Below are positions 21,234 through 46,220 of a stretch of 64,000 nucleotides of DNA, piece after piece. The stretch spans positions 339,501 to 403,500 of the forward strand of contig CANMMF010000001.1 of the NCBI GenBank assembly GCA_947498985.1. The letters are read 5' to 3'. The position numbers and the translations under genes are program-made. This DNA comes from an uncultured Paracoccaceae bacterium (GTDB taxonomy: Bacteria > Pseudomonadota > Alphaproteobacteria > Rhodobacterales > Rhodobacteraceae). Each line of letters begins with the position of its first letter. The first letter of the stretch is position 1. Under the pieces are notes generated by a model. The model was not told the origin of the DNA. It made no database searches and saw nothing but the letters and a program-made list of their open reading frames with translations.

Positions 21234-21298
21234 CCACCTTGAATGCCGCGGCGCAGGGTGGCAGGCATGGCGCATCCGCCGCCAGGAAGGACAAGCCG

Positions 21299-22180
21299 AT
21301 GAGTGATTCCCTGCCCATGCCCGTCACCGCTCCGCTGAGCCGGGCCCAGCGCACGCAACTGATGAACCTCGTGCGCCGCGCCGCCAAGGCCGAGATCATG
21401 CCGCGCTTTCGCCAGCTTGGCGCGCATGAGATCGACACCAAGTCGGACGCGCAGGATCTGGTGACCGCCGCCGACCGCGAGGCCGAGGCGATGATCACCC
21501 GCGGCATCCTGTCGATGTTCCCGAACGCGCTGATCATCGGCGAGGAGCACGTCTCGTCGCATCCCGACGTGCTCGACAAGATCGCAGAGGCCGAGCTGGC
21601 TTTCACCATCGATCCCGTGGATGGCACTTGGAATTACGCGCGCGGGCTCACGACTTTCGGCGTGATGGTGGGGATCCTGCGCTTCGGCACGCCGGTCTTC
21701 GGGTTGCTTTACGATCCGGTGATGAACGATTTCATCATGGCAGACACGCAGAGCGCCGCCGAGATGGTGATGCCCCGCCGTGCCCGGCAGGCCCTGTCGA
21801 CATCGCGCGGTGGCGCGGTTGAGACGCTGACCGGGCATCTGTCGCTGTCAGTCTTTCCCAAAGACAGGCAGCCGGAGATTGCCGCCACCCTGCCGCGCTT
21901 CCAGCGGGTGAGCATGCTGCGCTGCATCTGCCACGAATACCGGCTGCTGGCGCAGGGGCATGTGGATTTTGTGCTCGCCGCCAGGATCACGCCCTGGGAT
22001 CACAGCCCCGGCGCGGTTATCGTCAAACAGGCCGGCGGTCACGTGGCGATGCTGGACGGCAGCGATTTCAACGCCGCCCGGCGCGAGGGCTATCTTCTCT
22101 GCGCCGCCAACAAGGCGACCTGGGAGGCCGTGCGCGATGTATACGGGTTCCTGCAGACGGCCGAACCGGCTGAGAGCTGA
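21299..22180 (+). CDS. inositol monophosphatase family protein
   Basis: Metal-dependent phosphatase of the IMPase/CysQ fold. The 293-residue protein has the metal-site sequences IIGEEH and DPVDGTWNYARG and the C-terminal WDHSPGAVIVKQAGGHV. The substrate could be inositol-1-phosphate, PAP or another sugar phosphate. The ATG at 21299 follows AGGAAGGA. The stop codon is immediately followed, with no gap, by the 95-base repeat array. Confidence 0.85.
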   Translation: MSDSLPMPVTAPLSRAQRTQLMNLVRRAAKAEIMPRFRQLGAHEIDTKSDAQDLVTAADREAEAMITRGILSMFPNALIIGEEHVSSHPDVLDKIAEAELAFTIDPVDGTWNYARGLTTFGVMVGILRFGTPVFGLLYDPVMNDFIMADTQSAAEMVMPRRARQALSTSRGGAVETLTGHLSLSVFPKDRQPEIAATLPRFQRVSMLRCICHEYRLLAQGHVDFVLAARITPWDHSPGAVIVKQAGGHVAMLDGSDFNAARREGYLLCAANKATWEAVRDVYGFLQTAEPAES

Positions 22181-22583
22181 CCGCAAAAGACGCGGCTTTT
22201 GATGACCCCCGCACCCGGACTGGCGAGAGTGTGGGCCGTCACGTCTGCTATGCAAACATGACCTTGCCCACTGGCCGCAAAAGACGGGGCTTTTGCGGAA
22301 ACCCCACACCCGGAACGGCGAGGGTGTGGGCCGTCACGTCTGCCATGCAAACATGACCTTGCCCACTGGCCGCAGAAGACGGAGCTTTTGCGGAAACCCC
22401 GCACCCGGACTGGCGAGGGTGTGGGCCGTCACGTTTGCAGAGCAAACATGACCTTGCCCACTGGCCGCACAAGACGGAGCTTTTGCGGAGACCCGGCACC
22501 CGGAATGGCGAGGGTGTGGGCCGTCACGTTTGCAGAGCAAACATGACCTTGCCCACTGGCCGCAAAAGACGGGGCTTTTGCGG
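22181..22583. repeat. tandem array of four 95-base hairpin units plus a partial fifth
   Basis: Units start at 22181 (94 bases), 22275, 22370 and 22465 (95 bases each), with a 24-base partial unit at 22560-22583. Each unit carries hairpin 1 (CCGCAAAAG/CTTTTGCGG, perfect in units 2 and 5), hairpin 2 (CCCRCACCC/GGGTGTGGG, weaker in units 1 and 4) and hairpin 3 (GTCACGTTTGC/GCAAACATGAC around AGA). The array begins and ends with a hairpin 1 and fills the whole space between two convergent genes. The unit length is not a multiple of three, so it is not coding. A role as a bidirectional transcription stop or REP-like element is inferred. Confidence 0.93.
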
Positions 22584-22585
22584 CC

Positions 22586-25432
22586 TTATTCCGCGGCTTC
22601 GGCGTAGTCGGACATTGGCGGGCAGGTGCAGACGAGGTTGCGGTCGCCGTAGACATTGTCGACCCGGTTGACCGGCGGCCAGTATTTGTCGACCCGAAAC
22701 GCGCCCGGCGGAAAGCACCCCTGTTCGCGGCTGTAGGGCCGGTCCCAATCCTTCACCAGGTCTTCCATCGTGTGCGGAGCGAGCTTCATGGGGTTGCTGT
22801 CGCGGTCGATCTCTCCGTCCTCGATGGCGCGGATCTCTTCGCGGATCGCCAGCATGGCGTCGCAGAACCGGTCCAGCTCGGCCTTGGTCTCACTTTCGGT
22901 GGGCTCGATCATCAGCGTGCCCGCCACCGGCCAGCTCATGGTGGGCGCGTGAAAGCCGCAATCCACCAGCCGCTTCGCGATGTCCTCGACCGTGACACCC
23001 GCGCTTTTCTCGAACGGGCGCGTGTCGAGGATGCATTCATGCGCCACGCGCCCGGACGCGCCGCGATAAAGCACGTCATACGCCCCCTCCAGACGCCGCG
23101 CGATGTAGTTGGCATTGAGGATCGCCACCCGCGTCGCCTGCGTCAGACCGGCACCGCCCATCATCAGGATATAGGCCCAGGAGATCGGCAGCAGCGACGG
23201 CGATCCAAACGGCGCGGCGGAGACCGAGCCGACCCCCGGCTCCAGCGGATGTGAGGGCAGATGCTGTTCGAGATGCGCCTTGACGCCGATCGGCCCCATG
23301 CCCGGACCCCCGCCGCCATGCGGGATGCAGAAGGTCTTGTGCAGATTGAGGTGGCTCACGTCGCCACCCAGATCACCGGGCCGCGACAGGCCCACCATAG
23401 CGTTCATGTTGGCGCCGTCGATATAGACCTGCCCGCCATGGGCATGGGTGATCTCGCAGACCTCGCGCACGGTCTCCTCGAAGACCCCGTGGGTCGAGGG
23501 GTAGGTGATCATGCAGGCGGCCAGCGCCTCCGCATGGGTCTCCGCCTTGGCGCGGAAATCGGCAAGATCGATGCTGCCCTTCTCGTCGCATTTCACCGCG
23601 ACCACCTTCCAGCCCACCATCTGCGCCGAGGCGGGGTTGGTGCCATGCGCGTTGACCGGGATCAGGCAGACGTTCCGGTCACCCTGCCCGCGCGCCTTGT
23701 GCCAGTCGCGGATGGTCAGCAACCCGGCATATTCGCCCTGCGCGCCGGAATTGGGCTGCATGGAGATCGCGTCATAGCCGGTGATCGCACACAGCTTGGC
23801 GTTCAGATCGCCGATCAGCTCGGCATAGCCCCGCGCCTGATTGGCGGGCACAAACGGGTGGATCTGGCTGAAGTCGCGCCAGCTCACCGGCATCATCTCG
23901 GCGGCCGAGTTGAGCTTCATCGTGCAGGAGCCAAGCGGGATCATCGCGCGGTCCAGCGCCAGGTCGCGATCCGCAAGACGCCGCATGTAGCGCATCATCT
24001 CCGTCTCGGCCCGGTTCATGTGAAAAACGTCGTGCTGCAGATAGGCGCTTTGCCGGATCAGCGCCTCGGGCAGGCGGTAGTCGGGCGTGTAGTCGCTGTC
24101 TTCGCGCAGCAGGCCAAAGGCGCGCCACACCGCCTCGACGGTTTCGGGCCGCGTGCGCTCATCGAGGGTGATGCCCACACGGGTCTTGCCGACGCGGCGC
24201 AAGTTCAGCCCTTCGCGCACCGCCGCCTGCAGGACACCGCGCTGCAAAAGCCCGACATCCACGGTGATCGTGTCGAAATAGCTCTCGGGTTCGACCTTGA
24301 AACCCGCCGCCTCCAGCCCCTTGGCCAGCCTCACGGTCTTGCGGTGGATGCGCTGGGCTATGGCGCGCAGGCCTTTCGGCCCGTGAAACACCGCATAGAA
24401 CCCGGCCATGACCGCCAGTAAGGCCTGTGCTGTGCAGACATTCGACGTGGCCTTCTCGCGGCGGATATGCTGCTCGCGGGTCTGCAGGCTGAGCCGGTAG
24501 GCGCGGTTGCCGTGGCTGTCGATCGAAATCCCGACGATCCGCCCGGGCATCGCGCGCTTCATGTCGTCGCGGCAGGCCATGTAAGCCGCATGCGGGCCGC
24601 CGTACCCCACCGGCACGCCAAACCGCTGGGTCGAGCCCACGGCAATATCGGCGCCCATCGCAGCCGGTTCCTTGAGCAGGCAGAGCGCCATCGGATCGGC
24701 GCTCACGATGCCCACGGCCTTTGCGGCATGCAGCGCGTCCATCTGCGGCGTGACATCGCGCACGTGACCGAAGGTGCCGGGATACTGGAAGATCGCACCG
24801 AACACGGCCTCGGCCTCAAGCGCGTGCGGATCGCCGACAATCACCTCGATCCCCAGCGGCTCTGCCCGGGTCTTCATCACGGCGATGTTCTGCGGGTGGC
24901 AATTCTCGTCGATGAAGAAGGCGCGCGCCTTCGACTTCGCCACGCGCTGCGCCATGGTCATGGCCTCGGCGCAGGCCGTCGCCTCATCGAGCAGCGAGGC
25001 GTTGGCAATCTCCAGCCCGGTCAGGTCGCAGACCATGGTCTGGTAATTCAGCAGCGCCTCGAGACGGCCCTGGCTGATCTCGGGCTGGTAAGGTGTGTAG
25101 GCGGTGTACCAGGCGGGGTTTTCGAGGATGTTGCGCTGGATCGCCGGTGGCGTCACCGTGCCGTGATAGCCCATGCCGATGAGCGAGGTCAGCACCTTGT
25201 TCTTGCTCGCCACCTCGCGCATCCGGTGCATCAGCTCGCGCTCCGACAGCGGCTTGCCGAAATCCAGCGGCTCGGCCTGCCGGATCTCGCGCGGGACGGT
25301 CTCGTCGATCAGCGCATCGAGGCTGTCGACCCCGAGCGCCTCCAGCATGTCCTCCATCTCCGCGGGCGAAGGGCCGATATGGCGGCGGTTGGCAAAATCA
25401 TATGGCAGATAGTCAATCGGCGTGTAGCTCAT
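22586..25432 (-). CDS. gcvP: glycine dehydrogenase (decarboxylating), P-protein
   Basis: PLP enzyme that decarboxylates glycine and passes the aminomethyl group to lipoyl GcvH. The 948-residue fused form (alpha plus beta halves) is full length. The PLP Lys lies in [19 protein letters not shown], and the other half shows [13 protein letters not shown] and the N-terminal FANRHIGPS signature. It is last in gcvT-gcvH-gcvP, 118 bases after gcvH. Its stop codon lies 2 bases from the repeat array. Confidence 0.97.
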
Positions 25433-27100: not shown

Positions 27101-27290
27101 GGGCATCCCGGCGCGCGAAACGCGCCTCGAATGCCCCCTCTGTCCTTGCGCCTGAGATCATTATCCCTTCGGCGGCCCGGCGGTGCGGGCTCTCTCCAGA
27201 GTCTTCTGTGCGGTGACGGTCCCTTGGGCCTGAGAGTTTCCGGGGCGGTTGCTCCTTCGGCACCGGCAAGCCGGTTCTCCCATCATCGCT
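27101..27290 (-). promoter_or_regulatory. tandem glycine riboswitch and expression platform upstream of gcvT
   Basis: Read on the minus strand, two glycine aptamers follow each other. The first (about 27290-27213) has GGGAGA, GCCGAAGGAGCAA and CTCTCAGGC with AAGGGACCG. The second (about 27205-27130) has CTGGAGAG, GCCGAAGGG and TCTCAGGCGCAAGGACAGAGGGGG. A nested hairpin at 27101-27136 (GGGCAT pairing with ATGCCC around GCGCG-AAA-CGCGC) overlaps the end of aptamer 2 and could be the switch. Known glycine riboswitches turn gcv operons on when glycine is plentiful. Confidence 0.93.
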
Positions 27291-27312
27291 GTTGGCGACG
27301 CTAGCCGATCAC

Positions 27313-36622: not shown

Positions 36623-38107
36623 ATGAGATCCGCAGGCATCACACTGGCTTCCAAACTGGCTTCGATACTGGTCCTGGCAGGGGCCGGCGCCGCGATGGCG
36701 CAGGACAGCGACATCGTGACCAAGCAATATGACGATGGCGGCGTCTACGAGGGCACGTTCGAAGGCGGCTTGCAGCATGGCACGGGCACCTACCGGCTGC
36801 CCAACGGCTATGAATATACCGGCGAATGGGTCGAGGGCGAGATCAAGGGGCAGGGTGTGGCGCGCTTCCCCAACGGCTCGGTCTATGAGGGGCAGTTCGC
36901 CAAGGGCAAACCCGAGGGTGTGGGCCGCATCGTCTTTGCCGATGGCGGCACCTATGAGGGCACCTGGCTCGACGGCAAGATCACCGGGCAGGGCGTCGCG
37001 ATCTACGCCAATGGCGTGCGTTACGAAGGCGCGTTCCGCAACGCGCTGCACCATGGCAAGGGGGTGATGACCTCGCCCAACGGCTATGTCTATGACGGCC
37101 AGTGGGTGAACGGCGTGAAGGAGGGTGAGGCCAAGATCACCTACCCGGACGGCTCGGTCTATGAAGGCCGCGTGGCCGATGGCGAACGCGACGGCGTCGG
37201 CGCGCTGACGATGCCGGACGGGCTGATCTATGCGGGCAGCTGGCGTGACGGGCAGATCGACGGGCGCGGCAAGCTCACCCAGCCCAATGGCGACATCTAT
37301 GACGGCGAGCTGGTGGATGGCCGCCGCGAGGGGCAGGGCAAGGTCACCTATGCCAATGGCGACACCTATGACGGCGCGTTCAACAACGACCAGCGCCACG
37401 GGATCGGCACCTTCGTGGGCTCGGACGGGTATCGCTACGAGGGCAACTGGATCGCCGGGCAGATCGAGGGTCAGGGCAAGGTCACCTATCCCGACGGCTC
37501 GGTCTATGAAGGCGCGTTTCGCGGCGACCTCGCCAATGGCCGCGGCAAGATCACCTATCCCGACGGCTCCACCTTCGACGGCGAATGGGTCGATGGTGTG
37601 ATCGAGGGTCAGGGCACCGCGACCTATGCCAACGGGCTGGTCTACGAAGGCGGGTTCTCCAACGCCCGCAACGAAGGCTTCGGCGTCATGACCTACCCGG
37701 ACGGCTACCGGTACGAGGGTGAGTGGAAAGACGGCCAGCGCCACGGGCGCGGCACCGCGACCTATCCCGACGGCACCGTCTATGAAGGCCAGTTCCGCGA
37801 TGGTCAGCGCCACGGCGAAGGCCGGATCGCCATGGCCACCGGATTTACCTATGTCGGCGAATGGGAGCGTGGCGAGATCAGCGGCGAGGGTGTCGCGACC
37901 TATGCCAATGGCGATGTCTACGAAGGCACCTTTGTCGATGGCAAGCGACAGGGCAACGGCACCATGCGCTATGCCGGTGGCGAGCAGGCCACCGGGCAGT
38001 GGATCAACGGCGCGCTGGCGCGGCAGGCGGCGGCCGAAGGCACGCCGGAGGATGCACCCGCCGAGGAGGATGCATCGGACGTGGAGCCCGAGGCGGCGTC
38101 GGAATAG
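36623..38107 (+). CDS. secreted MORN-repeat protein
   Basis: A 494-residue protein made almost wholly of MORN repeats. After a signal peptide (about 1-27, ending AGAAMAQ) come about 18 regular 23-residue units of the form NG-x-x-YEG-x(4)-G-x(3)-G-G-x(5), from about residue 38, then one degenerate unit (GGEQATGQWINGALARQ) and an acidic tail rich in Glu, Asp and Ala. MORN repeats form elongated beta-hairpin stacks that bind phospholipids or proteins. The export signal points to the periplasm or outside. The function is unknown. Confidence 0.88.
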   Translation: MRSAGITLASKLASILVLAGAGAAMAQDSDIVTKQYDDGGVYEGTFEGGLQHGTGTYRLPNGYEYTGEWVEGEIKGQGVARFPNGSVYEGQFAKGKPEGVGRIVFADGGTYEGTWLDGKITGQGVAIYANGVRYEGAFRNALHHGKGVMTSPNGYVYDGQWVNGVKEGEAKITYPDGSVYEGRVADGERDGVGALTMPDGLIYAGSWRDGQIDGRGKLTQPNGDIYDGELVDGRREGQGKVTYANGDTYDGAFNNDQRHGIGTFVGSDGYRYEGNWIAGQIEGQGKVTYPDGSVYEGAFRGDLANGRGKITYPDGSTFDGEWVDGVIEGQGTATYANGLVYEGGFSNARNEGFGVMTYPDGYRYEGEWKDGQRHGRGTATYPDGTVYEGQFRDGQRHGEGRIAMATGFTYVGEWERGEISGEGVATYANGDVYEGTFVDGKRQGNGTMRYAGGEQATGQWINGALARQAAAEGTPEDAPAEEDASDVEPEAASE

Positions 38108-46191: not shown

Positions 46192-46220
46192 AAAGGACGC
46201 CCGCGAGGCGTCCTTTCTTT
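46192..46220. terminator. bidirectional terminator
   Basis: A 10-bp stem AAAGGACGCC/GGCGTCCTTT with a 5-base loop, with T-rich ends on both strands (CTTT on plus; TTTTTG on minus). It serves the small gene ending at 46128 and the Crp/Fnr gene ending at 46246. Confidence 0.88.

Follow-up and report, generated by a model that had tools for sequence, protein, structure and literature searches.

In the puf operon of Rhodobacter, hairpins between co-transcribed genes reportedly affect segmental mRNA stability, a result attributed to Klug et al. in 1987. REP sequences are able to stabilise mRNA or to terminate transcription and, together with REPINs, feature a conserved unpaired GT[AG]G at the hairpin foot (PMC6006769). 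The L17 downstream element is described as an RNA structure in potential 3' UTRs, downstream of ribosomal protein L17 genes (Weinberg et al. 2010, PMC2864571). The locus described below, an array of structured repeats that adjoins gcvP, lies in a 64 kb window (the whole stretch of DNA analysed). The array may be a local amplification of a dispersed structured repeat, present in a minority of Rhodobacteraceae, that acts as a 3'-end RNA exonuclease barrier, an account to which we give roughly even chances.

The array between gcvP and its convergent neighbour

An earlier note on this DNA had described an array of 95-base units in the gap between two convergent genes, and TRF, a repeat-spacing search and the open reading frames confirm it. 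TRF calls a repeat at 22177-22583 (period 95, 4.3 copies, 91% matches, 0% indels) and the repeat search gives unit spacings of 95, 95 and 95. The array spans 22181-22585 as four 95-nt units and a 25-nt remnant. These four near-identical units and the first-hairpin remnant do make up the whole stop-to-stop gap, as had been claimed, with no spare base on either side. The array begins at 22181, immediately after the stop codon (22178-22180) of the convergent neighbour, an IMPase/HisN-family gene on the plus strand (21239-22180; TIGR02067, E 1.7e-39, below the NCBIfam cut-off). Its last base is 22585, and the stop codon of the host gene gcvP (22586-22588) adjoins it; gcvP was called as an open reading frame at 22586-25432 on the minus strand (TIGR00461, 1421 bits). 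gcvP is the last gene of a gcvT-gcvH-gcvP group, upstream of which a glycine riboswitch aptamer is found (RF00504, 52.6 bits, 27207-27292 of the window, minus strand). Thus, the operon has a known switch at its 5' end and an array at its 3' end. Elsewhere in the window, a 69-nt tandem repeat (37226-37375, 2.2 copies) has a translation that appears MORN-like by eye.

On the gcvP strand each unit starts with a first hairpin (H1), continues with the core hairpin (H3) and closes with a tail hairpin (H2), which is weak. In unit 1, H1 occupies 22558-22585 on the minus strand (11 bp around a loop of 6 nt, directly adjoining the gcvP stop codon), the core hairpin 22516-22556 on the same strand (supported by a match to model R1, the fold and covariation) and the tail 22491-22515, also on the minus strand (hairpin 2, with a CCATTCCGGG motif, from fold and alignment). 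H1 reads GGCCGCAAAAG-CCCCGU-CUUUUGCGGCC and is followed, after one base, by the core, GUGGGC-AAG-11 bp-triloop-G-GCCCAC, and then by the tail; the core of unit 1 has a foot of 6 bp, an AAG/G internal loop and 11 bp that include one U-G wobble. Unit 2 (22396-22490, its H1 with a mismatch, then core and tail), unit 3 (22301-22395) and unit 4 (22206-22300) follow on the minus strand, each placed by TRF, spacing and model search, and the repeat search identifies the terminal partial unit (22181-22205, minus strand) as a copy of H1 flush with the convergent IMPase-family stop codon. The three hairpins per unit proposed earlier are therefore present with two refinements, namely that the foot of hairpin 3 is closed by pairing of GTGGGC with GCCCAC (on the minus strand, 6+11 bp with an internal loop) and that hairpin 2 is a small tail hairpin on the minus strand. 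Both strands of the array fold better than their shuffles, the minus strand (-222 kcal/mol, z -8.5) by more than the plus strand (-194 kcal/mol, z -5.9), and one unit with the gcvP stop folds into three hairpins at -56 kcal/mol (z -6.25). Rfam 15 gives no match to the array above the gathering score, and at E<=1 the only match in 22100-22700 is MIR7510 (19.4 bits against a gathering score of 93); a known RNA family was rejected for want of a credible match at either threshold.

Copies, carriers and host genes

A search of related genomes showed that the unit occurs outside the gcvP locus, as a dispersed repeat family. In the window's own genome, of 5.29 Mb in 48 contigs, a search with model R1 lists 37 rows at E<=1, and 26 of these are units at E<1e-4; a further copy (L122, E 0.0015) has a clear H1. 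When arrays that reach a contig end and have an H1 in common are treated as one, these units probably represent about 12 loci. Several contigs end inside arrays (L010, L013, L014, L015, L017 and L019), apparently broken at the repeats, and common H1 sequences suggest that the end of C4 neighbours the start of C6, the end of C6 the start of C10 and the end of C11 the start of C12. Single units are common in the family. A full H1 is, as a rule, found in the first unit of an array alone; later units (e.g. in L011) keep the host-matching right arm of H1 without its outer left arm, which argues that arrays arise by tandem duplication in place, and they look like local tandem duplications of unit 1.

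Carriers make up 17 of 394 family genomes with model R1 and 16 of 394 with model R3, which includes H1 (both at E<=0.001), 21 of 295 genomes with model R2 (E<=0.01), and one of 289 in a class-level search, this one being the window's own genome; the samples overlap and include that genome, and the stricter filters lose weak matches. Ten carriers were searched with 150 candidates scored in each, giving 21 units in G360, 16 each in G021 and G356, 9 in G054 and 2-6 in the others. Named carriers are Tropicibacter naphthalenivorans, Aliishimia ponticola, one Marivita MAG and two alphaproteobacterial MAGs. Within the searches made, the repeat is confined to one GTDB family. Wide occurrence was rejected. 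Six Burkholderiales pattern matches have one conserved stretch in common, which has neither H1 nor repeat and is coding-like by eye, and they are taken as chance; the class-level search adds none beyond the window's own genome. A record labelled Enemella evansiae (L044, JAFKDC010000019.1) has the array of G003, a genome of the window's family, and is probably mislabelled. L103 and L215 are weak, atypical members at a common position, that of L103 lying on the opposite strand between the 23S and 5S rRNA genes. In the open-licence PMC literature, no description of the repeat family was found among the matches listed.

Presence is almost all-or-none per genome, and the family is absent from G001, the sole same-genus relative searched. 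These two observations sit more easily with a mobile element than with a housekeeping 3' end. According to this rival explanation, the repeat is small and mobile, travels as DNA or RNA, requires its fold in order to spread and prefers the 3' ends of certain genes, with a first hairpin completed from the target and any effect on the host being incidental; we consider it possible, if on balance doubtful. The patchy presence, 17 and 16 among 394 family genomes, is in its favor. Against it, no partner gene was found in a test for one candidate: the Y1 transposase of RAYT/TnpAREP (Y1_Tnp, PF01797) is present in one of 12 carriers tested (G139) and one of 10 non-carriers (G008), being absent from 11 of the 12 carriers, including G000. 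In addition, no copies were found in plasmid and phage records by blastn or in viral contigs with two sequence patterns.

Protein genes, 6S RNA and SRP RNA carry the copies at their 3' ends, in sense orientation. H1 begins where 6S RNA ends in three genomes (above the gathering score in L038, below it in L112 and L125), and one genome has a copy at the 3' end of SRP RNA. An open frame of at least 60 codons ends at H1 in 54 loci, and 38 of these belong to 15 ortholog groups common to 2-5 genera; simulated random placement over 500-4000 gene ends yields means of 5.0-0.65, and 38 was never reached in 2000 runs. The C-terminal pieces of ten hosts match NCBIfam, these being UvrD/PcrA (weakly), IF-1, LepA, release factor 3, FtsA, RNase HI, BchY, GAPDH, a SYLF lipoprotein and a SoxH-like hydrolase; the pieces are fragments, and all except IF-1 and RNase HI score below the curated cut-offs. 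In four of eight picked loci a co-directional open frame follows the tail after 10 (L088), 23 (L090), 41 (L086) or 45 nt (L121), and the copies there are probably transcribed through. The downstream frame in L121 appears XerC-like in our reading, and in L086 the downstream frame that matches it starts about 13 nt beyond the listed one. At least six other copies (L021, L046, L082, L114, L122 and L202) lie by eye just past the T-run of a terminator-like site, and three (L118, L124 and L206) adjoin promoter-like sequence on the other strand, also by eye. Copies in such places need not be transcribed; they are the main facts against a 3'-end role and favor a mobile element. In the latter three loci, which belong to three genera, the element directly follows the same sequence, AATCGAATCA, whose other strand looks promoter-like by eye (TTGACA/TATTCT, with TTGACT in L206) just beyond the element.

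Similarity at orthologous sites bears on whether copies descend from a common ancestor or were inserted anew. For cores, the orthologous copies in two genomes barely exceed pairs drawn at random from the same genomes in similarity (.752 vs.734, 92/2000), and likeness is greater among the copies of one genome than between non-orthologous copies of different genomes (.781 vs.722); both results favor mobility. At orthologous sites, tails show no excess over random pairs, whereas H1 does (.644 vs.584, 0/2000). L019 and L020 were dropped from these comparisons as too short. On a RecA tree carriers are clustered, with 7 changes vs 10.3 shuffled (33/1000), the tree being a rough one of 16 carriers and 14 hand-picked non-carriers in which two same-genus genomes are not joined. 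The H1 similarity and this clustering leave room for descent. The clustering counts against a mobile element, as do some orthologous sites that look inherited, such as L084 and L203, which share H1 at 93%. As to a MITE, which would have terminal inverted repeats, a target-site duplication and a transposase acting in trans, H1 palindromes bound the array, and the intergenic DNA of relatives is too divergent for a clean comparison with empty sites. Our reading is that the family turns over and is homogenised within genomes, atop some inheritance; repeated insertion at favored sites may also contribute.

The first hairpin and the covarying fold

H1 is about 28 nt long, mostly with 11-13 bp and a loop of 4-6 nt, and usually ends one base before the core. 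At least nine of its 11 pairs form in 74 of 82 first units (a few of which are at contig ends, with the array start out of view), compared with 14 of 46 later units and 100 of 1660 random positions. First-unit H1 sequences are distinct in 80 of 81 cases, and 26 of the 81 resemble another at >=85%. Of 81 loci, 54 are coding hosts, meaning that an open frame of 100 or more codons ends close to H1. In 49 of them H1 starts between -8 and +4 relative to the stop codon, most commonly at -1 (19 loci). The inner minus unit of L010 was excluded from the stop-position and strand/distinctness counts, and from orthologous-site similarity. The right arm of H1 complements host bases, with the stop codon included at many sites. 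At a metallo-hydrolase-like gene, L117 ends GGAATGA opposite TCATTCC and L037 and L204 end GGAATAA opposite TTATTCC; thus, the right arm changes along with the stop codon that it overlaps. This complementarity also suits a mobile element. In its most specific form, which we hold to be unlikely, a mobile fold element would home to the 3' ends of a fixed gene set and complete its first hairpin from the target, the right arm being the complement of the host's last bases including the stop codon. Completion from the target would account for an H1 that differs from site to site.

H1 does not appear to be a hairpin of gene ends in general. The 25 MaoC 3' ends without the element are at background for H1 (5-9 of 11 pairs), and the 15 gcvP 3' ends without it are background-like (5-10 pairs, L127 and L139 reaching 10); L150 and L168 were excluded from the MaoC set (28 of 30 used) and L142 and L143 from the gcvP set (16 of 18 used). 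The 64 kb window has one other perfect hairpin of at least 10 bp, which also led to rejection of this candidate. That hairpin, AAAGGACGCC..GGCGTCCTTT at 46192-46216, is 29 nt from the stop of a minus-strand open frame. The 25 MaoC ends also show that the same genes do without the element elsewhere, a point against a 3'-end role. A Xer/dif-like site, considered for its 11-6-11 geometry, was dropped since the H1 arms have no common sequence.

The earlier note had suspected that the fold is kept, and covariation across loci and genera, in alignments of 105 units and of 67 loci, strongly supports it. Removal of 16 mostly antisense rows with E above 1e-4 from 121 model rows left 105 aligned units, in which 14 of 15 core pairs show compensatory, two-sided changes. 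Because this alignment was fitted to the structure of model R1, the count was redone with a structure named by us on a plain MAFFT alignment of H1 and core from the first units of 67 loci (24 pairs, 1547 cells). Here, 92.4% of the 1547 cells pair, compared with 69.7% when shuffled (0/500 shuffles as high) and at most 48.9% when the structure is slid. Two-sided cells number 342 vs 97 shuffled, and the covariation score is 0.561 vs 0.170 shuffled and 0.081-0.109 for the slid versions; the shuffle control ignores relatedness whereas the slid control retains it. All 11 H1 pairs and four of the six pairs of the core foot have two-sided changes. The 67 rows remain after removal of units with fewer than nine H1 pairs and of L015, L101 and L201 from 70 references, a choice that favors H1 pairing, so the unselected H1 count (74 of 82) matters.

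The strand on which the fold is kept is indicated by wobble pairs, since T opposite G on one strand is an A-C mismatch on the other. The earlier remark that changes in hairpin 3 yield G-U wobbles on the minus strand is true of the TCA-type core, in which T is opposite G on the gene strand in 42 of 43 units, but does not extend to the whole family; the same pair in the plain alignment of 67 units is U-G in 31, U-A in 25, C-G in 6 and other in 5. A count of 91 U-G among 105 units in the model-fitted alignment is inflated, because that alignment pairs U-G in the other core type too, where U-A is available, and the 42 of 43 is used instead. As for the suggestion that a minus-strand RNA fold is kept, the core agrees, with 45 G-T vs 9 A-C cells, although most of the difference comes from one pair (14 vs 5 without the TCA-type pair), and H1, with 8 G-T vs 7 A-C cells, has no strand bias. 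The gene-sense strand is favored, mainly via this one pair and the constant orientation of the copies. That the wobble evidence for an RNA strand comes mostly from one pair counts against a 3'-end role, and the lack of strand bias in H1 is in keeping with a mobile element.

Possible function at gene ends and comparison with known systems

Of the functions that the earlier note had offered, an RNA-stabilising 3' end for gcvP is the best reading of the sequence, and from position and structure the family probably guards transcripts against 3'-to-5' decay. Once transcribed, H1 and the core would stand at the end of the coding sequence, where they would block 3'-to-5' exonucleases and set a stable 3' end; the extra units of an array would add redundant barriers. 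The sense orientation, the placement at the ends of functional RNAs, the missing U-tract and the copies between co-directional frames argue for such an RNA 3'-end barrier over a terminator. It is improbable that the array terminates transcription or blocks it in both directions between the convergent genes, although GC-rich hairpins that fill a convergent stop-to-stop gap with H1 at both ends would suit such a role. Neither a U-tract nor a terminator-like site was found at the array, whose T bases fall within the H1 stem, and an intrinsic terminator was rejected for a GC hairpin without a U-tract; other copies are sited after a T-run, or between co-directional frames, the second of which starts only 10-45 nt downstream. 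The multiple transcription barrier put forward earlier is weakened by the same facts. Tandem sRNAs exist in Rhodobacter. If the array were a precursor that yielded one 3'-UTR-derived small RNA from each unit, this would agree with tandem, structured, sense-strand copies at 3' ends and with the recurrent tail motif CCAUUCC of the unit alignment, but such a precursor is very improbable given that 22100-22700 has no Rfam sRNA match and that single units are common.

The family brings to gene ends, exactly positioned, a structure with strong covariation, in which one hairpin is free in sequence yet kept in pairing and position. If it acts on RNA, it would be a new class of bacterial 3'-end element, found on the same genes across genera; should it be mobile, it may have an undescribed means of building a hairpin from its target. 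Our best reading of the sequences is a new family of 3'-end RNA repeats that would be REP-like in role without being members of REP.

The likeness to REP/BIME and REPINs is that of short dispersed intergenic palindromes, and the family is multi-copy, extragenic and palindromic. The REP-like mobile repeat suggested earlier is correct as to dispersal, with 26 units in the own genome, and not as to REP membership. A RAYT-driven REP was rejected, PF01797 being absent from 11 of the 12 carriers tested. In addition, GTGG is a common start of the core, but it is paired with CCAC, and substitutions on the two sides go together (GTTGGC/GCCAAC, GTCGGC/GCCGAC and GCGGGC/GCCCGC), so the core foot is a covarying stem and not an unpaired GT[AG]G. 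The family further differs from REP/BIME in its unit of about 95 nt with three hairpins, its restriction to one GTDB family in the searches made, and a first hairpin of unconserved sequence flush with the stop codon. The L17 downstream element, which has no Rfam match in 22100-22700, is alike as an RNA structure at a potential 3' UTR; it has one type of host, whereas the repeat family has many unrelated hosts and a site-specific first hairpin. The hairpins of the puf operon are alike in lying between genes, and the family may work like them. The puf hairpin is known from a single locus, whereas the repeats at gcvP belong to a dispersed, covarying family, a distinction drawn from description.
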